A stretch of 64,000 nt of DNA from Diphasiastrum complanatum (taxonomy: Eukaryota > Streptophyta > Lycopodiopsida > Lycopodiales > Lycopodiaceae), in assembly GCA_029204225.1 (NCBI GenBank), contig CM055095.1, forward strand, positions 52,489,836 to 52,553,835, read 5' to 3'. The notes under the pieces are model-generated. The model saw only the letters and a program-made list of their open reading frames with translations, had not been told where the DNA came from and ran no database searches. Positions 1-25,981 of the stretch are shown here, in pieces (within the stretch, counting starts at the first letter, position 1; each line of letters opens with the position of its first letter). The position numbers were made by a program, and so were the translations under genes.

Positions 1-3000
1 GCAAGACTTCCTACTTCTCCAGCCGAAGGAAATGGATCTGTTTCGCGGTTTGGTGGCCGCCCCATGCCTCAAAGATCGAACTCGTTGACAAAATCGTCTG
101 GAGGTAACCATTATGCATGCATTATTGTACAAGAAATTATTGCCATAACCATTCAATCTAATAAAGAAATAGGGGCTGGGTTACTGTGTCTTTCTTAGAT
201 GCAACTGATTATTCGGGAAGTTTTTTTGACAGTTGATGGGGATCCTCTTTACACCCAGCTCTGGCACGCTTGTGCTGGGTCCCTTGTCTCGCTTCCTCGT
301 GTGGGAACTCGGGTGGTCTATTTCCCTCAAGGGCATATTGAGCAGGTATTGAACTCTATTTCCTTCCATTTCAACTTTCGCTGGTGGTAAATCTCCAAGC
401 CGTCCACGGTTTTGAAAGTTTCGGATTCTGGTAGCCGAGGTCCGCCATTGTCCCTAGCAACTCTCGTTTAAGGAGTAATGCAAGTTATAGAAGAAAGACT
501 TTGAACAGTAGCGAGAGGGAACAAATCTGAGCAGTTCTAATTATGTTTGCATTCAGAGTTCAGAGATCTAATCATCTAAGTAAGAAACGAAGAAGGGCAA
601 GTTCAATGTCAACAGTTCCTTAGGTGAACAAAATTTTAGCTAACAGCAGAGCAAATACACGAACTTTAAACTGGATCTTCTTTTAATATCATCCAGCAAT
701 ACATGGTTTAGCAGTAGAATTTTGTTACTTCTACTTCCTTTTGAAGCTCTTATGATTTTACCGTCTCCAGGCTTTTCACATGATTTCACCTAACATATTT
801 TCTCTATGCATGTTTCCTCATTAAGGCATTCCATTTCTCACTTCTCCAGTGCTTTTGTCATAATTTCAGCCAAAATTTTGTCTGTATCACATGGCCTCAT
901 TTTTTAAGGTCATTATGTTTCCACCGCTTACAGAATCCTGGTCTTTTACCTTGAAAAATACAATTCTGATCATCATCTAGGAGCTTTATAGGCTCCTTGC
1001 TGTCTTCTGAGTAGGGATATCATAGTATTTAGTCTGAGCTATGCATGGACTGAGCTTGAAGACTGCAAATCTCCTTTGTCATGCCTGGTTCTAGCTACTC
1101 ATAGCATTGACCTCGTTGTCTTGTCCAAAGTCTCCAACGAGTTTTCAACCCACTTGTATTTCTTGGCTACTTGATAAGCTGCACTGTAATCTGCCTCAGT
1201 TATTGACAAAGCTACAGAATTTGGCTGACAGCTACACTAGCTAATCTTAGCTCCTCCCTCCCCCTATGAACATGTGTAAAGTTTTTAGTTATTCCCGAGA
1301 TGTCCATCCCAGGGGTTCTTCAACTCCTGAGTACGAGTTCGTGATATGGGGTTCTCTCCAGGTAGTACCTCTTGAGCCTAAATTAAGTAAAAACCACCCT
1401 CCTGTGGATATTATACTATCTGTCAAGTGATCCTTGTATTGTTCAGCTTTCCTTCCTCATTGCGTTTCATTATTAAGACTAATTTTTTCCAATTGGTTGA
1501 CTACCTTCAGGTAGCTTCACCAGACATCTGATTTTTTTAAGTTTATGATTGTGTTTGTTTCTTTTGTCATAGGTTGGTGCCATTTGCTCTTCTTGCTTTG
1601 CAGAAGTTGCTTAGCTCTCCCAGGGATTCTTCTTCGCAAATTATCATCTTAGTTGACTGGTGGCTTCCTGATCATGTTCAATCTCAGCTGGCACCTTCTT
1701 ACTTTCCCCATTGCTGAGCCAGTGATTGCTTCTTTCTGTAGATGCTGCATGGATATCTGACCTCTATTGCAGCCCAAAGGTATCTATCTTCCTTTTGACC
1801 TCTTATGACCAAGGCATTCCCGGTTGTCCTCCATGAGTATTCTTTCATTTCAGTTCATTTGTCTTCATCAATTATTACCTCTAGAGAAACCACAAGTTGT
1901 TTCTGTCAATTACACTGGCGTTCGTGCAGAAACCCACAAATTGCAGTTCCCTCTATTTTTGTTATCCTATGTTTTTGGAGGTGTATGTGCTACAGCCAAA
2001 TATGCTTTCTTCACGTAGGTATGCTCTGCAACAACTTACCTCAGGTTTCTTGCCACTCTGCTTTCTCAAGCATATAGCCTTCATGCATGACCTATTTTAG
2101 ATGTATATTCTTGTTTGTACCTTCAGCACACAGGTTTTTGGAAACATTTTGTACTTTCTGTGATACTTCAGTTCTTGTCGCAAGACCATTATGTCGAGGG
2201 TTTTGGGAACAGAATGCTCTGTTTGGTTCCTGCCATCATTAGATTGCAATGTCATTACTTAAGTCTGGAGAAACTTAGATGATTTTTGGAAAGTGTTTAG
2301 CTCCACTGGGTGATGTCCCAGCTAGTGACTGCAGATATATGGGTAGATTGATTAAAAACAAATCCTAGCTTTTTCTCCTCCACTCTTCAAGAATGGGTCA
2401 TGGTGCTTTTATCAAGTGTACATCATTTGCATACATGGGGTCCATTTGATTCTTCCTAGCCCATCTCCAGGACTTCCCTTCTTCGTTTAAACATGAAGTT
2501 GTCTGGGGCCTAGATGCCCGTACCTGCAGTGCCAGTTCTGATATATTCTTGTATTTGCTACCATCATGTTTCCAGGTATAGCACAGTGCTAAATTCTACA
2601 TCAAGATCCACTGGAGCTGACAGATAATAGATTATTTGTCAAAATTTGTACAAGTAATATCCCGTCGTGCTTTACATTTTTGTTTCCTATAGCAAACTAA
2701 CGTGGACAGCATTAATGCATCCTTTGTGTATACCATCTCACTTATTCTTCTCTCAAGGACCTGATAATAGACCAAATAGTGACCTGTAGCAGTATGTCCC
2801 TTCGCAGCAAAATCTAGACATGATGCATTATCCTTGCACATTTTGTTGCCCTGCCGTCAGATCCATATGCCACCTAGACGGATCGTGGGTTCCATCTGCT
2901 TATCCTCTTTTCAAAGCAGTTGCCGTTGGGGATGAAATTTTGTTTATCAATGACTGCCAAAGCTTTCTGCAACTCATGCATGGCCTTCTAACACCTTCGC

Positions 3001-6000
3001 AAAGAATTACCTTCTTCCTCGGCATCTTCCTCCTGACTTATTGTTGCTGTGGACCTATACATGCATAGTGTCACTATTTCTATAATTGAAGCACATATCA
3101 TCTTGCTTGTTGGTCTTTTTCCATTCTTCATTATGGAGGTGATCTCAATAACACACTAGGAGTTTGAGGAACTAGGGGGAGCTGATTTCCTGAGTCGCAA
3201 TTGAGCATTATAACGATGGCTTTTGGCCCAGAAATTAATGTCAGCTTCGCACCACACCAGCACATATAAAATAAAGCATGCAACCAGGAAAGCTAATGAT
3301 GCACATTACACAAGGATCCTCAAGATGACTGGAGACAAGAATAACCAACAGCAAATTCCATTACATTAAATTTGCTGTTTGATTTTGCTCTTTTCAGGTT
3401 GCAGCATGCACTAATCAAGGAGAAGATTTGCAAGTGCCTCAATTCAATTTACCCTCCCAGATACTTTGTCGAGTCCTTAACATGACACTAAGTGTATGTC
3501 TCATTTCGGCTATTGTACTGTTTTGAATCAGAGTGAAATACCTCACATGTGATTATAATATTATTATAATGCCTATTAACTTTTTCCAATCCCAGGCTGA
3601 ACGAGAGACAGATGAAGTTTTTGCGCAAATGACTCTGGTTCCTGAGTGTGAGGTTTGCATCAGTTTGAGAATCTTGTTTGTGCAAGCTGATTAAGTGATT
3701 TTGAGCCATATTCATTTGGTGTCCAGCTTGAATATTATATTGTTTTATGATTGAAAAAGGTTTAGAATCGAGTTATTATAGGATCTCATTCCCTGTTTTT
3801 CATCAGCAAATCAATCCTTCAGAAGAAGTGAAAGAGGAGCTTCCATTCTGTCCGAAACATAATTTGCACATGTTCATCAAGCCGCTTACTGCGTCTGATA
3901 CAAGCACCCATGGTGGGTTTTCTGTTCCAAGAAGAGCTGCAGAGGAATGCCTTCCTCCCTTGGTATGCCAAAATATGCATAGTTTAGGGACATGGTCATT
4001 TTTCTTACTGTTTGGCACTTAAGTCCTTGACTTGGACATTGCTAGCTGTGTATTGTTAATTTTATTATGAAAAATTTCTTCGTATGTTGATCTACTTACT
4101 TTGGAGGAAAAAACTCAAGAAAGAGCATTTATGTTACGTTACTCCGAAGCGAGAATTACAGGGTGTTCTTTGAAGTGTTTTGTTATATTTATTGTTTCAA
4201 ATGGTGTTTCATCGTTGTATGTGCACGGCACTGAAGTCTGCTTATCAGGTCTTAATCAGTGTTGTTATAGGTATAACTAGTAGAGTCATGCATCCAAGCA
4301 TCATTTGATGAAGTTATTTCAAGCTATTCCATTATTCACACAAGTAGTGGGTGAGAAGTATTTAGATGCTTAATCTCCAAGGTTCCAGCAATGCCTAATG
4401 CACAATCATGTCTAGCAGGACTTTCAGCAGTCTCCTCCAACTCAAGACATAATTGCAAAAGATTTACATGGAGCAGATTGGAAATTTCGACACATCTATC
4501 GTGGTATGTGTTGTTTGATCAAGTAAATAAAAGCTTATTATCAGAAATTTTATAGTGTATATAAGATTGTTCCTCAATACTCTTCAAAAATATTTCCAAA
4601 GACGTTCTGAACCATGTTGTCCTTTTGGGCTGCACCTTTGGTATGCTAAGGCCTGAATAATATTAGCTAAAACAAGTTTGAAGTATGTTATGAAACTTAT
4701 ACTCAGTATAATTACAACTGTCTTTAAGATTTCATTGCTTTTTCTTCCTAAATTTATAGCTTTCTTTTGTATAATTCATAGCTCTCTCTTCCTAAACTCA
4801 AATTCTGCTGCTAATTTATTTGAATTTTTCATTACTTTCCTTACCAGACTTGATCTGAATCTATAAAATTCCAATCAGCACAGCTGTTGATTTGTGATCA
4901 TATAAGCCTGTTTTGAAAGAGAGCACATTTTTGAAGGCCCTGTTTTTGTCCTGACACTAAATTATCCATATACAATGGGCATGACAATTTTCTTGATCTG
5001 ATTTGCAATTGCTTGCATTTAAAATTCTTCCAACAGGGCAGTGAGAAGTATGCTCACGGAAATTTGATCTTGCATTTTTTTAGGAGCAACTATTTCACGA
5101 GTGAAAAATCTCAAACTTTTTTATGTTCCAAAAGATTCAGAACGGAGCAATTAGTTGCTCAATGCAGGGTTTAAGTTGGAATCAGTATCAAATGTGTCTG
5201 GCTTGATCTGTCAAAGTTTATGCATAATTCGTTTGGGTTTAAAGTCTCTGTTGTGAAGGAATTGGCCCTTTTGTATGTAGGCCACCCCAAGCGACACTTG
5301 CTGACTACGGGATGGAGTGTTTTTGTAAGTCAAAAGAGGCTGGTAGCTGGTGATGCAGTTATTTTTCTAAGGTAGGATACTCTGCCATTCGAGCAATGCC
5401 AAACATGTTTTCTTGATTAGCTGTTTTACATAATGTTTTTATAAGATCATGGAGTTCAAACTGTACTGCAATACTATGCTTTTGCAAAAATATTATGCAC
5501 AAATGATGCTGGATTTTTCCTGGTGTCTAAGTTTATGCAAATCATGGAAAAAAAATTAGGGGTGAAAATGGAGAGCTCCGGCTTGGTGTGAGGCGCTCTG
5601 TCCGGCAACAGAGTGGTGTGACGTCGTCTTCCCTGCTTTCAAGTCACTGTATGCATTTAGGGGTACTTGCTGCTGCAGCTCATGCTGTCTCAACAAAAAC
5701 AATGTTCAGCATTTTTTATAATCCGAGGTAGGGATAAGCGATGGCTTCGTGCAATCAGCATGGAAAACTTTTACCTCTTAGTTGCATACAGTCTGCACTT
5801 TATGTACATTAGTTATCACTCTTGATATTTTGTGTATGGAGTAGTAACTTTTATTGCTATTTAGTGGTAGCATACATCATGCTTCTTGGTTTCCAAGGGA
5901 AGGCTCAAACTTGGGACCAAATAAACTTTGGATGCCAAGGTAACCAACTGAGTCAACCCCATTCGGTGGCAGCGTACGTGATTGAGAAGTGTGCACCTCC

Positions 6001-15148: not shown

Positions 15149-15600
15149 GGGGGGGGGGTGTTGGATTTATCTCATCTACTCTCCTAAATCCTATGTTAAT
15201 CTACCTCCATTCATGCTACTGCTTTTTTTCTCGTGTTGTCGGACAATCTACATATTTGAACTATTTGTCGCTGCAGTCTGCATAAATATAGGGTAAATCT
15301 CCACATGTGAAAAATGCAAAAAATTCAACACTGCCTTACAAATGCCAAAGGTGCCCTTATAGAAAGACGAAGGTACCTTGCAAATCATTTTGTTAAGACA
15401 TTTGATGGAGTGTTGCGATTTTCACATTTTTACCAATGTAAATTTTAGCGAAGCCCAATGTCGCGGCCTCCTCACGCTCGTCCATGAACTGTGCAATCAG
15501 ATTTGACAACAACAACAGCCACCCACGATCTCCCACAAACAGCACAACCACTTTTGTACCTTCTTCATCTGCACACATGTAAAACTTATGTATATATTAA
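15149..15600 (+). repeat. PPT and 3' LTR start of copy F1
   Basis: The pol stop is followed by a poly-G polypurine tract (about 15147-15158) and then tgttggatttatctc at 15159, a standard copia LTR start. No matching 5' LTR is seen, so the right end is not fixed; it must lie before the methyltransferase exon at 15616. Confidence 0.6.
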
Positions 15601-15615
15601 ATATCATCTGAGTAT

Positions 15616-17962
15616 TCAGAGAGATTTTATTCTCATTTTCACAAAATCAACTAAATTAGTATCTAAATCTACTGCAGCAACATGTCTGCCTTTCTGAACA
15701 GCACATGTGCTCGTAGTGCCGCTGCCGCTAAATAAATCTAAAACCCAATCAGCTGGGTGAAAAAAAATATCAATTAAATGATTAATTAATTGTTGTGGCT
15801 TTTGGTAGGGACAAGCCACAGAACTTGTCATTGGATTTTTTAATTTCTTTGTCACAACTGGATACTGGAACAAGTTTCCAAAACTTGTCAGTCCGGAAGT
15901 GTTATAATGCAGCATCGAGCATTTGCCATCCAAAGAATAATAACCAATGGTTATGTATTCATTGCAAAGTCGAGCTCCTCCTGAGTTCCTGACATTGGGC
16001 TTGTACCTGACATGGAACATTACAGGTCAAATCAATTTAAAATTTAAATTTTTTTGTAAAAAATTTAAAATTAAATTATGAATTAAAATACAAATTGATA
16101 ATTTAGGAACTTAAGAACTTACCACACAACATTCTCGATTTTCGCATTACAGAAAGTTAGTAGAGCTTTCTATACTGATGCTGACTGACAAGAAGAATGA
16201 AAAATAACAACTCTCCAAATTGGAGAAGTTTTGACTTCAAGAAAGCCCTGTATAAAACTATGGATTTCAGTGAATTTGAAAGGAGTATCATCATTTAATG
16301 ATTCCTTCATCTGAAATCCATATGGTATATTGGTGATGCAGTGTGTAAGGCCTTTTTCTTAAAAAATTTGAAATTTCTCTGCAATCGCCCTCCTCAACGA
16401 AGTAAAAGCATGGTTGATCATCGACACTTTTGGGAAGGTAGGTCTCTAATGGATACTCCTCCGCAATAGTCTCACCCCGTGCCAATCTCTCTCTGTCCCT
16501 TTTTTATGCTTTTGCCTTCAGAATATGTCTCTTGAATTGCTCTGGAAGGACTTTGTTTTTTTTGTCTTCGGGAGACTGAAAAGGAAAAAGTAATGCTTAA
16601 CATGGGAGGCAAAAAATATAAAATAGAATAGGAGACTTAACTTATCAAAAAAAAAATTAAATAAAGAAAAAGTTGTGCTTAGCATAGGAGACATAGAATA
16701 TAGAAAAGAAACAATTAATAAGCACCTATGCTTAGGCATGGGTGAAATAAATACCATGTCTCTAAACAAAATAAAAAATGGACTCAGGGCTTCATTTCGG
16801 CTGCTCAGAGGATAAAGCCTCTGGCACTAATCGAAATCTTGACAATTTAACCCTGTCACAAGGGCTTCTTGAACTTTCATAAATAATTTGTGCCTGTATT
16901 TATAAAATATAATTGTTAAAAATCCAACCAAATTAATCATTTTATTAAAAAAGGTAGCATGAAAATAAATATTTAAATTATGATTATTACCTCTGAAATT
17001 CTTTTTCCAATTCTGCCAGGGAAAGTTGACCATCGACAACTCTTGAAAGAACACTTATTATTAGCTCTGAAGATCTAATCCCTTGCATATTCTTCCACTC
17101 TGATATTCCCATTTCAGTAGGGATTGACTTCAGAGTTTGAGTGCTCACAACTTTCTTTTTGGACTTTGAGGCACCCTAAGCAGGTTGGCCTTCTATTTGA
17201 AAAGTTTTCCACTTATCAAAAAATTTAAAAACAAGGGCCCACACCTGAAATAAAAAAAATTTAATTGATAAAAAATTTAACCAATATTTAAATTGAGTTC
17301 AAAATTTTAGTCTGATAAAAAAATTATAACATATATTATGACTAGAGCATTCCATGACGAGCATAGCCAAACAAATTACCTGGCCACTACAAAAAGCAAG
17401 CTGAAAAAAAATTATCGTATTTAGTAAGGCTCTGCGTAGGATTTTTCGAATCAAAAGGCAGGCCTGTCTCTGGAGCACATAGTGTTTTCAGCTCAAGTTG
17501 ATTCACATTTCCTGCTTTGGAGACTCTCATGTTTTCTTTGTGAAAAAAATGAATTCTTTGTATCACGATCATCTTCATCCGGTAGTCCTGATCAATATTG
17601 TGGTCCCAAGCCAATAATTTCGCTTCTTCCACTGTCAGGCCAGCAAATGCAATAGCACTCACAGTTCGAAAGGTTGAGATATGGGGATACTCTTGAGATA
17701 ATTGTTTTTGAGCTTGTAAACTGTGTACCCCCCCAAGAACAAAAAAATGATATGAATCTAATAAAGAAAAATTAAAATTTGCAACATCGTTGCATTCGTT
17801 AGGATCAACCAAAACAACAAAGGGAGTAACTATAGCCTGTGTATGATCTTTAAATTTTATTTTTAAATTATGTACGTGTGTTTCATTAGGCTTTTTAACT
17901 TCCATTGGCCTGTCTCCTGTTATTGGGTCTACAGGTGGCCTATCACACTGATTTATGTCCAA
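15616..17962 (-). pseudogene. ParB-like / beta-class amino DNA methyltransferase gene, five exons, decayed
   Basis: Minus-strand exons with GT-AG borders and compatible phases: 17962-17380, 17244-16991, 16893-16755, 16575-16123, 16006-15616. Exon 1 carries a ParB/sulfiredoxin-like domain: FFVLGGVHSLQAQKQL, then LTVEEAKLLAWDHNIDQDYR. Exons 2-3 are helical linker. Exon 4 holds the motif IV position, reading ITNIPYGFQ at about 16310-16335 where DPPYG is expected, and leads to ENVVWYKPN across the last junction. Exon 5 has motif I, DWVLDLFSGSGTTSTCAVQ (about 15700-15740). The order IV then I is the beta class, whose members make N6-methyladenine or N4-methylcytosine. Lesions: an extra T in a T8 tract near 17405, stops at 17176, 16827, 16504 and 16170, and a frameshift in exon 4. 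LTR A1 begins 40 bases upstream of the first ATG, so 5' exons may be lost. Introns argue against bacterial contamination. Confidence 0.82.
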
Positions 17963-18001
17963 AATTTAAGTTGTTTCTTTTATTTTTTTTGTTTTATGGA
18001 T

Positions 18002-20236: not shown

Positions 20237-20918
20237 TGTTAAAAATTCACAATTCTAGCTTGACTAGTTTTGGTCATATGACTTGTAAATAGTTAGATGG
20301 TCATGATGTGGCTTGTCACACGTGCCAAATAGCATAGGATTCCATTCATAAGGATGTTCTCAAGTAGACCTAAGTGTTAGAACCTTTGGAATGAGTCCAA
20401 ATTATGCTTAGATACAAGGGAGAAAAAATAGGAGCTATTTTTGGTAATTTTTGCATTGTTGAGGGATCTCCAAGATTCCAACCCTAACTTGGTAGGGATG
20501 AAAGATCCACCAAAATTAGCATTAGGGATAGGTTTAGGGCTACTCATACCTGCCCAAAACCGTGATGGATCATGTATATATAGGTGATGATATCTCACCA
20601 AAATCAATCAAGCAATTTCATGTTTTTTCTCTCATAATGGTGCAATTGCTCTCTATGTTCATAATTGTTTGAGTACTTGTGATTACTAATGATTATAGGA
20701 TTGAATGTAGGTCTGGTGTACAGTACTCAGACTGTGGGAGGCCGTACTTTCACACGTGTGAAGCCTTCTTCAAGGATTTGGGCCATTTAGTGAGGTTCAA
20801 GCATAGATTTTTGATGGATTTTGATGGTTCAACTTGTGCTAATCTTATGAAATCATAATCTATTGTTTCCCTCATCATTTCAAGTGTTTTAGGATCCTTA
20901 TTTGCTGTAATTTTTACA
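20237..20918 (+). repeat. 5' LTR of B+
   Basis: Begins tgttaaaaattc and ends gtaatttttaca. It has a TATA box at 20575-20582 and CACACGTGTG at 20751-20760. It appears identical to the 3' LTR, implying recent insertion. Confidence 0.95.
20575..20582 (+). promoter_or_regulatory. Putative TATA box of the B+ LTR promoter
   Basis: The run tatatata sits in the middle of the LTR, where copia U3 promoters normally lie; it is repeated in the 3' LTR near 25638. Confidence 0.55.
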
Positions 20919-21729: not shown

Positions 21730-24700
21730 ATGGCATCTATAAATGCATATCTTTTGGATACTAATGAAAGGCTCAACAAAACTAACTATTCCATATGGAA
21801 AGTTAGAATGGAATCTATCATGATCATGCAAGATCTGATGGAAATTGTAAATGGTAAGGAGGGTGAACCTATTCATCCTCAAGAAAAAGCCAAATACATC
21901 AAGAGGTGCAATGTTGCACTACATTGCATAAAAATGAATGTTGCAAATGAACTCTTAAGAGAGGTAGGAGATTGCACTTCAGCTCAAGATGCTTGGGAGA
22001 CTTTGCAAAAGGTATATGAATCCAAGAACCAAACTAGAATGTTAGCTTTGAAGAATCAAATCTATAGAAGCTATCAAAAGAAAGGAGAGAATGCACATAC
22101 TTTTGTCCTAAGAGTAAAGGAATTGAATAAAGAGCTAGCCTTTATAGGTGACCTTATCAAGGATGAAGAGCTTGTTCAACTCATATTGAATGGACTAAGC
22201 TTTGAATTTGACAATTTGGTTCAGGGATATGCAATTATGGGTAAGCTACCCATACTTGAAGAACTCCAAGGCACGCTCATGGCCGAGGAATCAAGAAGGA
22301 GCCAAATGCAAGAGAGGATGGATAGGCTTTCCATCCAAGGTGGAGATGACCAAGCTCTCTTCACCAAAGGCAAAGGCAAGTCCAAAGGCAAAGGATCAAC
22401 ATTCAAGAAGTCTACAAAGCTTGAGGATCAAGAAGGCAACTCCATCAACCACCAAAGTCAAGAAGGACAAATCAAAGGTGAAGTGCTACTATTGTAGCAA
22501 GATGGGGCATTATGCCTCGGAATGCTTCAAGAGGAAGCAAGATCAAAGCCAAGCCAACATGAGCAAAGAGGAGGAGGAGAGTTCACATGAGGACTCTCTC
22601 ATGATGTCCATATTTTCTTCAACAAGCTTCAAAGGAGAAGATCCTTGGTGGATTGACTCGGGTGCTAGTTCACACATGACTAGTAAAAGGGAGTTTTTCT
22701 CTTCTCTCTTATCTTATGATGGACCTATAAAGTCTATCTATACAGCAAATGATGAAGCTTGTAAGATTGAAGGAGTTGGTAGCATTCCCCTTTGCTTAGG
22801 ATCTTCCAAAAAGATCAACATAGAAGGTGTTTTGTACATTCCTACAATAACAAAGAATCTACTAAGTGTTGGCCAAATGGTAGACAATGGTTTCAATGTT
22901 GACTTTGCTTCAAATGAATGTTTCATCAAGAAGAAGGGTAAGATAGTGGCTAAGGGCACTAGACTTGGCAAACTATATAAGCTGGATGCATTTGTGGATA
23001 CTAATGTTGTCATGTTGGCCGAGAAGAGCAAGATATCTACCTTTACTTTATGGCACAAAAGACTTGGACATGTCAACTCGGGTTCCATGGAGGCTATGAT
23101 CAAGGAGGAGTATGCTTTAGGCCTACCAAGGTCTATTGGGAAGGAAGACAAGGTTTGTGAAGCTTGTGCCTTATCCAAGGCACATAAGAAGGTGTTTCCT
23201 AGCTCCATCACAAAGTCATCTCATCCTCTTGAACTCATACACTCGGATGTGCACATTGCTAGCACCAAATCTAATGGAGGTTCATCCATGTTTTTAACCT
23301 TCATTGATGACTACTCAAGATATTGTTGGGTGTTCTTACTTTCCTTCAAGTCTCAAGTATTTGATACTTTTGTAAAGTTCAAGTTGTTTGTGGAAAAGCA
23401 TCATAATCATAGCATCAAGATTCTTAGAAGTGACAATGGTGGAGAATTCATCTCCAATGAGTTCAAGGCCTTTTGTGAGGAGGAAGGGATCAAGAAAGAG
23501 ACTTCTTGTCCTTACACTCCTCAACAAAATGGAGTTGCTGAAAGAAGGAATAGAACATTATGTGAATGTTCTAAGGCTTTAAGATTAGATGCTTGTTTTC
23601 CCAAATCCTTTTGGGATGAGTCTCTTGTATGTGCAAACTACTTGATGAATAGGGTGTCTTGCAAAGCAATTGAAGGCAAAACTCCTTATGAGATGTTGTA
23701 TGGAAAGAAACCCAATCTTAATCACTTGAAAGTTTTTGGGTGTATATGTTATGTGCATGTGCCATTGGAAACAAGAACCAAGGAGGATCCATCTTCCACA
23801 AGAGGGATCATGCTTGGATATGCAAGCTCAAGCAAGGGCTACAAAGTCTATCTCCCATGCTTGAACAAATTTGTTGTTTCAAGGGATGTCATCTTTGATG
23901 AACATCATATGCATATGCTTGAAGAAGGCTCAAGTGCTCCAACAATCAAGAAGAAGATGGCCGAGGAGCAAGATCTTGGTTTTGAGGAGGAGCTCATGGA
24001 GGAGCAAGCACCAAACCCACCTATCACACCAAGGAGATCTTCAAGGGCAAAAGTGGAGCCATCAACGCTCACATATCAAGGCAAAGGACAGCAAGTTGAG
24101 GAGTATATCTATATGGAGCAGCCACAAGGGTTCATCAAGCATGGAATGGAGAACAAAGTATGCCATCTCCAAAGAAGCATCTATGGCTTGAAGCAAGCCT
24201 CAAGATCTTGGAATTCAAGACTACATTGCTATCTTATTTCACTTTCTTTTGTTCAAAGTGAATATGATCCCACTCTTTACATTAAGTTTGATGATGTTGG
24301 TATTGTACTTTTACTCATTTATGTAGATGACATCATCATTAGTGGAAATAGTGTTGATGGTATTGAAAAAATCAAGATAGATCTATCCTTAGAGTTCAAG
24401 ATGGTAGATCTAGGGTGTCTTCACTTCATCTTAGGCATAGAAGTACTTAGAGGGTCTGATTTTATCTTTATAAGTCAAGTAAACTATGCTCAAAGTCTTT
24501 TGAAGAAGTTTAAGATGGAAGTATGCAAAAGTGTTGACACACCAATGGAGCAAGATGTAAAAGTGCCAAATGAAGATGATGAAAGATCCTTCATGGACAT
24601 CACTTTGTTTAGGCAACTTATAGGTTCCTTAATGTGGATCACTATAACTAGACCAGATCTTAGCTTTAGTGTATGTAGGTTGAGCCAATCCATGCAAAAG

Positions 24701-25285
24701 CCATTGAATATCCATTGGAAAAAGGCTAAGAGGATTCTAAGATACATCTCGGGTACATTGGATTTTGGGATTCTATATAGAGGAGATGTGATTAACCTTC
24801 ATGCATTTAGTGATTCAGATTTTGCAGGGGACAAGAGGGATAGGAAATCAACAAGTGCCTATTCAACTTTCATAGGAGAAGGTGTGGTTTCATGGCTTTC
24901 AAAAAAGCAAGAAACTATATCTCTATCTTCAACCGAGGCCGAGTACAAAGCTTTGACAACCACTACAAAGGAGGTACTTTGGATCAAGAGATTATTGGTG
25001 GAACTAAAGATCATGGATTCAGAGGAGGCACCAATCATCTACAATGACAATATATCAGCCCAGCACCTTGCATCTAACCCAATCTTCCATGCAAGATCTA
25101 AGCACATTGAGATATGCCATCACTTTGTGAGAGAAATGGTGCAAGCCAAGGAGATTGCTTTGGAGCATGTTCCAAGCAATGAATGTGTAGCTGATCTACT
25201 TACTAAACCACTTCAAAAGACACCTTTTATGAAGTTCAGATCATCACTTGGAGTGATTAGTAAAGCAATGATTGAACCAAGCTAG
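21730..25285 (+). pseudogene. B+ gag-pol polyprotein, frameshifted and RT-deleted
   Basis: Gag starts at MASINAYLLDTNERLNKTNY. Zinc knuckle CYYCSKMGHYASEC lies near 22485-22526. Protease has WWIDSGASSHM; integrase has HKRLGH...CEAC, then the D, D, E regions HSDVH, LRSDNGGEF and PQQNGVAERRN; reverse transcriptase keeps YVDD near 24320; RNase H has SDSDFAGD and STEAEY; the end is VADLLTKPLQK. Compared with B-, 11 bp are missing near 22433, throwing gag out of frame with pol, and about 134 codons between GQQVE and IYMEQPQG are deleted in frame, removing the N-terminal half of reverse transcriptase. The long open pol frame otherwise indicates a recently active source. Confidence 0.92.
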
Positions 25286-25299
25286 ATAGTGAGGAGGAG

Positions 25300-25981
25300 T
25301 GTTAAAAATTCACAATTCTAGCTTGACTAGTTTTGGTCATATGACTTGTAAATAGTTAGATGGTCATGATGTGGCTTGTCACACGTGCCAAATAGCATAG
25401 GATTCCATTCATAAGGATGTTCTCAAGTAGACCTAAGTGTTAGAACCTTTGGAATGAGTCCAAATTATGCTTAGATACAAGGGAGAAAAAATAGGAGCTA
25501 TTTTTGGTAATTTTTGCATTGTTGAGGGATCTCCAAGATTCCAACCCTAACTTGGTAGGGATGAAAGATCCACCAAAATTAGCATTAGGGATAGGTTTAG
25601 GGCTACTCATACCTGCCCAAAACCGTGATGGATCATGTATATATAGGTGATGATATCTCACCAAAATCAATCAAGCAATTTCATGTTTTTTCTCTCATAA
25701 TGGTGCAATTGCTCTCTATGTTCATAATTGTTTGAGTACTTGTGATTACTAATGATTATAGGATTGAATGTAGGTCTGGTGTACAGTACTCAGACTGTGG
25801 GAGGCCGTACTTTCACACGTGTGAAGCCTTCTTCAAGGATTTGGGCCATTTAGTGAGGTTCAAGCATAGATTTTTGATGGATTTTGATGGTTCAACTTGT
25901 GCTAATCTTATGAAATCATAATCTATTGTTTCCCTCATCATTTCAAGTGTTTTAGGATCCTTATTTGCTGTAATTTTTACA
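25300..25981 (+). repeat. 3' LTR of B+
   Basis: 682 bp, TG...CA, visually identical to the 5' LTR. CACACGTGTG is at 25814-25823. Confidence 0.95.

Follow-up and report, generated by a model that had tools for sequence, protein, structure and literature searches.

An intron-bearing ParB-like/methyltransferase gene fragment in a clubmoss genome and the probable land-plant transposon family behind it

How does a gene of bacterial-type domains come to lie, divided by introns, in the genome of a clubmoss, and what might its product have done there? The question is raised by a stretch of 64,000 nucleotides from Diphasiastrum complanatum (contig CM055095.1, positions 52,489,836 to 52,553,835; hereafter the window), in which the minus strand from 18001 down to 15620 carries five exons and four GT-AG introns encoding a ParB-like part followed by a beta-class amino-methyltransferase (MTase). 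What survives in the window is probably the dead and truncated remnant of an accessory gene from a land-plant DNA transposon, the product of which may have bound and methylated the element that carried it. That the gene family as a whole is part of a mobile element is highly probable.

A truncated copy within a high-copy family

The window copy is a dead, truncated pseudogene, since stops or shifts of frame interrupt each of exons 1–4, and since the coding sequence of other copies continues past both of its ends. In a blastn comparison with 20 other 10-kb loci, homology stops at 18001/18002 and at approximately 15600–15620, whereas the other copies feature an additional start exon and N-terminal region as well as a C-terminal tail beyond these limits. 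A family unit ending at 18001 was considered and ruled out, because other copies extend further; this position is the cut of the window copy. The first-pass annotation, a reading of the DNA letters that preceded this analysis, described five exons with GT-AG borders and matching phases. The layout of exons and introns holds, with all four minus-strand introns bounded by GT and AG, but the phases do not add up to a readable gene. The motifs that it named were recovered by translation: VLGGVHSLQAQ, LTVEEAKLLAWDHN, and DLFSGSGTT lie within exons, and ENVVWYKPN arises across the junction of exons 4 and 5 (ENVVW/YKPN).

The genome searched comprises 1.74 Gb in 5176 contigs, and for each probe the best 150 matches were scored, from 1605 first-look candidates for the MTase, 2538 for exon 1, 1196 for the start exon, and 2953 for DUF7869 (the domain of a partner gene described below). 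Exon 1 recurs at at least 149 other places with 67–90% protein identity to the window copy (best 150 of 2538), far beyond chance, although matches on small contigs may duplicate a place on a large contig. Family copies are present on large contigs and retain their introns, and they were therefore not made through spliced RNA. This combination of high, dispersed copy number and retained introns is as expected of a class II DNA transposon. The first-pass annotation had proposed a search of the same genome for an intact copy; the genome holds a high-copy family with fuller members that continue beyond both ends of the window copy. Membership of a mobile element and arrival by transfer had been offered as possibilities; the result favors one decayed copy of a DUF7869-linked repeat family rather than a lone transferred gene.

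Purifying selection acted on the protein during the spread of the family, and after insertion individual copies are free to decay. This follows from the distribution of differences over codon positions 1/2/3, in which shared differences favor third positions and singletons do not. Across 20 copies of exon 1, differences common to at least four copies number 31/16/79 and singletons 38/39/31; across 27 copies of exon 5, for which the reference begins with 20 intron bases, the shared differences are 22/18/49 and the singletons 33/27/25. An intron stretch from 14 copies, counted alike, gave 6/5/4 and 6/17/9, respectively. Five early loci overlapping later ones and rows covering less than 60% of the exon were left out of these counts, which include several near-duplicates.

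The limits of the element are partly visible. Its right end falls near CATGRTGACC, with variations, in nine copies. A candidate terminal inverted repeat in one locus (L013), in which the right end recurs inverted upstream of the gene, was not accepted, as it runs on for hundreds of bases and may belong to a neighboring fragment, and a candidate left end in L031, L032, and L023 was dropped as it is located inside the partner gene. Flanking sequences of the first 20 loci reveal no carrier common to most of these loci. L026 and L027 (contig C22 at ~12.33–12.35 Mb and C24 at ~5.14–5.19 Mb) represent a distant subfamily with approximately 57–60% protein identity in the MTase exon, which on C22 is repeated in tandem, each unit being ~4.4 kb long. 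Within 10 kb, L023 holds parts of two ParB-MTase units head to tail, the second with its own palindrome array and partner gene.

A divergent partner gene and a palindrome array

Upstream of the start exon, the fuller copies carry an array of palindromes and, further out, a gene on the opposite strand. Joined pieces of this partner gene match DUF7869 in Pfam at 4e-32, and its product is most likely the transposase. The term DUF7869 returned 0 papers from the open-access PMC literature, a coverage that mostly leaves out subscription journals. The arrangement is exemplified by locus L047, where the partner gene runs on the minus strand from 2217 down to 143 with the DUF7869 part included, the array occupies 2769–3305 with 12 sites at three or fewer mismatches, and the plus strand bears the start exon (3535–3867) and the exon 1 region (4021–5000). 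The locus ends within this last region, so that exons 2–5 of the L047 copy fall outside the sequence examined.

Genome-wide, start-exon and DUF7869 matches no more than 8 kb apart form 12 pairs (best 150 of each probe), against a chance expectation of 0.21. When the start-exon positions were shifted by up to 5 Mb in 200 trials, the mean was 0.26 pairs and the maximum three. In 12 of 12 pairs DUF7869 is upstream and on the opposite strand, at a distance of 1.8–3.5 kb. With exon 1 as the probe, nine pairs were obtained, six upstream and opposite and three downstream on the same strand; the MTase probe gave three, of which two are upstream and opposite. Some pairs are near-identical to each other, and not all are independent. 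In the three same-strand pairs of the exon 1 probe (C6:63467726, C6:63677314, and C15:37780873), DUF7869 is 5.6–5.8 kb downstream. In addition, a distant DUF7869-like coding piece with 34% identity adjoins two near-duplicate ParB-MTase copies (L033 5643–5305 and L034 491–829), which suggests that DUF7869 elements of more than one type are present.

Between the divergent genes of the fuller copies lie 10–12 copies of a 17-bp palindrome, CCTATGCTNAGCATAGG. Two exact copies separated by 20–30 bp occur at 518 places in the genome, compared with 0 for the reversed control. Among 82 sites from seven loci, the free center carries 0.12 bit and the arms 1.3–2 bits; the loci were chosen for holding the array, and acceptance of sites with up to five mismatches to the motif favors conserved arms. 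The sites are 40–42 bp apart in 51 of 71 spacings and 53–55 bp apart in 16, or approximately four and five helical turns, although the seven loci are related by descent and their spacings are not independent. A palindrome pair stands 507–777 bp upstream of 6 of 13 start exons on contig C1 and part of C2, and single copies are also found in introns. In the seven loci (L023, L031, L032, L036, L037, L038, and L047), position 7 changes from C to T in 11 of 82 sites and its mirror, position 11, from G to A in 9 of 82, making both more variable than the adjoining core positions. This variation could stem from relaxed binding or from deamination of a modified cytosine.

The encoded protein and its relatives

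Related proteins occur in Ceratopteris and a Ginkgo-type protein set, and Azolla is a probable further source of relatives. When the genomes of 84,980 prokaryotic species were scanned once by pattern, the ParB part turned up in nine loci (L048–L056), all from one metagenome-assembled genome (MAG) of an uncultured Trichormus sp. (ERR2144891). In 9 of 9 the next exon follows after a gap of 75–103 bp, and five have GT where the conserved exon terminates. Because Trichormus lives with Azolla, a fern, as its cyanobiont, the nine loci look like fern nuclear contigs binned with the symbiont. In one of these fern-type contigs, L054, a gene similar to the partner is represented by its N-terminal part (30% identity, 2.9e-23), which lies upstream in divergent orientation, for which reason the pairing of the ParB-MTase gene with its partner looks old; the DUF7869 part itself is outside these short loci. 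The exact 15-bp palindrome was found in 0 of the 9, the flanks of which, at 1 kb or less, may not reach the promoter.

The C-terminal half had been called a methyltransferase from its motifs, and the profile search of the exons confirms this identity. Exon 5 matches N6_N4_Mtase (PF01555) at 5.9e-13 and 49.7 bits, above the curated cut-off of 26.7, and the related protein P0053 reaches 68.9 bits. Motif IV (exon 4) precedes motif I (exon 5), as in beta-class amino-MTases. Motif IV reads DIPY in 10 of the 20 plant copies that cover it and NIPY, YIPY, NILY, or DITY in the others, while P0006 and 8 of 8 fern-type loci covering the motif have DIPY. The catalytic motif IV of amino-MTases is (D/N/S)-P-P-(Y/F/W); however, amino-MTases with NLPY or NIPY exist, such as KsgA and Erm, and activity of the plant enzymes is therefore conceivable. 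Among solved structures, the MTase profile finds its best match in CcrM, the Caulobacter adenine-N6 methyltransferase (1.3e-11, positions 61–299), with other adenine enzymes next and a cytosine-N4 enzyme at E 0.0099. As adenine enzymes head these matches, sequence likeness suggests adenine as a methylated base no less likely than cytosine. CcrM presumably has no ParB domain, unlike the plant fusion.

Among the prokaryotic relatives found, the nearest are MTases of phages, several of which also have ParB; their identity is 24–29% (15 listed of 242 matching records among 50,697). Three phage ParB-MTases align with the plant MTase part at 97.8% probability. In the three tested, ParB_N precedes N6_N4_Mtase, as in the plant order, one example being the "ParB-like partition protein" of Monoglobales phage CHVD 5762. 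They differ in having DPPY in the three aligned rather than DIPY, and in the lack of introns and of the long N-terminal region. The phage and plant ParB halves are not linked by profile.

For the ParB-like domain, the earlier assignment is upheld in part. The predicted fold of a relative resembles the N-terminal fold of ParB/Noc, with its DNA-binding half matching weakly, but the Pfam search of exon 1 matches no ParB family. Neither exon 1 nor its relatives gave a Pfam match to ParB_N (PF02195) or another ParB family, and DUF6551 at 0.025–0.035 in three relatives was not counted as support. Comparison of the ParB part with phage ParB by hhalign yielded 2.3%, which is not significant, two relatives of this part matched no family in PHROGs, and sequence searches of the PDB with the ParB part produced nothing meaningful. 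A single tblastn match of P0003 to phages (E 2) and a first AlphaFold2 model (predicted local distance difference test score 49.6) were not used. Chromosomal ParB/Noc likewise have no sequence-profile match to the plant ParB part, and the plant protein differs from them in its fused MTase. We take VLGGVHSLQA as the counterpart of the ParB/sulfiredoxin nucleotide-binding box and LTVEEAKLLAWDHN as that of the next ParB box; the plant form, GG-x-H, would then presumably be as in sulfiredoxin, as opposed to GERR in chromosomal ParB/Noc. From joined pieces, the whole protein is estimated at roughly 900 residues.

Table 1. Coordinates of the gene fragment and of the neighboring retrotransposon in the window (LTR, long terminal repeat; SAM, S-adenosylmethionine)
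Feature	Position	Strand	Basis or remark
Surviving ParB-MTase gene fragment, both ends missing	15600–18001	-	blastn against 20 other 10-kb loci
Exon 1, 5′ truncated, ParB-like domain; stop immediately 5′ of donor	17380–18001	-	Fold of a relative whose alignment takes in exon 1
VLGGVHSLQA	17711–17740	-	Translation; homologous stretch in relatives aligned by hhalign, without significance (P-value 0.021), to phage GHGR box
LTVEEAKLLAWDHN	17597–17638	-	Translation; hhalign comparison with phage ParB, without significance
Intron 1, GT-AG	17245–17379	-	
Exon 2, stop inside; homologous to end of folded model	16991–17244	-	Same exon end in P0001–P0004; GT there in five fern-type loci
Intron 2, GT-AG	16894–16990	-	
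Exon 3, stop inside	16755–16893	-	Frame from homologous stretch of Ceratopteris P0022 and 9/9 fern-type loci
Intron 3, GT-AG, holds degenerate palindrome site	16576–16754	-	
Degenerate 17-bp palindrome, three mismatches	16672–16688	.	Sole window site at that mismatch limit
Exon 4, start of MTase domain; stops and frame change	16123–16575	-	
MTase motif IV position, reads NIPY	16320–16331	-	
Intron 4, GT-AG	16007–16122	-	
Exon 5, C-terminal part of N6_N4_Mtase; reading frame continues into unrelated flank	15620–16006	-	Pfam PF01555, 5.9e-13
MTase motif I, SAM-binding loop, DLFSGSGTT	15712–15738	-	Translation
copia LTR	20237–20918		
copia-type pol reading frame	22199–25285		Between the two LTRs
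copia LTR	25300–25981		

Predicted working and competing explanations

In the fuller unit, the gene of the putative DUF7869 transposase and the ParB-MTase gene diverge from a probable common control region containing the 10–12 palindromes. The ParB-MTase protein combines a ParB/Noc-type domain, a helical and possibly DNA-binding domain, and the beta-class amino-methyltransferase. Its ParB-like dimers may bind the palindromes, load there, perhaps by means of cytidine triphosphate (CTP), and spread along the element, and the bound part would bring the MTase to element DNA, where adenine N6 (or cytosine N4) would be marked. Such a mark could shield element promoters from host silencing by 5-methylcytosine (5mC), allow older DNA to be distinguished from fresh copies, or modulate the transposase. 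Binding of the array by the ParB-like protein and methylation of the element by its own product are both predictions of evenly balanced standing. The fuller proposal is more tentative and falls a little short of an even chance: that a land-plant transposon lineage carried a working ParB-parS-type system fused to an MTase, in which a clamp loads on its own 17-bp palindromes and writes N6-methyladenine (6mA) or N4-methylcytosine (4mC). This would be a self-marking device unlike the known plant DNA methylation pathways.

The array may instead be a binding site of the DUF7869 protein, in the manner of subterminal repeats, or a promoter element for a host factor, with the ParB-MTase acting elsewhere. 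In En/Spm, the sites of TnpA are subterminal repeats, the intergenic region that holds the array is common to both genes and could be used by either product, and single motif copies also occur within introns. However, an odd-length, clustered palindrome next to a gene with a ParB/Noc-like fold recalls the operators of the ParB-type protein KorB, which are odd-length palindromes in clusters. Use of the array by another protein is accordingly a serious possibility, though somewhat improbable.

A different account of the gene would be a host DNA methyltransferase gene, domesticated or vertically inherited, that other transposons captured and multiplied, leaving a pseudogene in the window. Purifying selection on the protein and its presence in Ceratopteris and the Ginkgo-type set are in keeping with such a history, which is nonetheless unlikely: the same divergent partner accompanies the start exon in every linked pair, a similar partner is divergent in the fern-type contig L054, and no carrier is common to most of the first 20 loci. 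Arrival through an endogenous large DNA virus, with the repeats as viral remnants, is very improbable. Although phages hold relatives of the MTase, three IMG/VR scans based on the ParB and MTase parts found no relative, no search of the loci for viral core genes having been made, and the introns are of plant type, with one position common to other plant sequences. Bacterial contamination of the assembly, which the bacterial-type domains might suggest, is practically negligible given the four GT-AG introns, the copies on large contigs, the adjacent copia retrotransposon, and the confinement of the ParB part among the scanned prokaryotic genomes to one apparently fern-contaminated cyanobacterial MAG. 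The first-pass annotation had dismissed it on the introns and the copia element, and the plant nuclear setting stands. That element, 2.2 kb from the gene fragment, inserted very recently, and its two direct 682-bp LTRs are 100% identical.

The transposon reading has a counterpart outside land plants. The Ectocarpus transposon Sola1-1_Ec32 is described as carrying an accessory gene with a ParB-like part and a DNA methyltransferase on the strand opposite the transposase, encoding a protein of 1104 residues proposed to bind and modify its own DNA (PMC12477816, section 5). As far as that section goes, the algal and plant systems share the two kinds of domain, the opposite-strand partner, and the proposed role. 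They differ in protein length (1104 versus roughly 900 residues), in host (an alga versus land plants), and possibly in the partner, a Sola1 transposase versus a DUF7869 protein. A palindrome array lies between the plant genes, whereas section 5 of that paper mentions none for Sola1-1. Bacterial-type DNA amino-methyltransferases in eukaryotes also include bdelloid N4CMT and Marchantia MpDN4MT1 (PMC8885841; PMC8566409). By the descriptions drawn on here, N4CMT includes a chromodomain, and for the Marchantia 4mC enzyme no additional N- or C-terminal domains are reported (PMC8885841); as described, both differ from the plant ParB fusion in domain make-up. No paper on a land-plant ParB-MTase family was found in the open-access literature, with subscription journals mostly outside this coverage. 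As far as searched, the new features are the occurrence in land plants, the DUF7869 partner, and the parS-like array; the ParB-MTase kind of transposon was already known.

If the predicted working holds, some plant transposons brought with them a sequence-directed DNA-marking enzyme independent of the host 5mC machinery. This would place a ParB-parS-like system in eukaryotic nuclei, offer a possible source for disputed 6mA and 4mC signals in plant genomes, and provide a route by which mobile DNA could escape or steer silencing. Two testable predictions follow from the 17-bp site and the MTase, namely that binding is specific and that modified bases cluster on copies of the element. A fragment of the family also appears within an annotated host protein. 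P0011 (D. complanatum O6H91_Y145100), annotated as an ion-channel protein, ends in a piece of the transposon MTase exon that is 80% identical to the MTase query over 12% of its length, and is either a chimeric gene model or a real exonisation.
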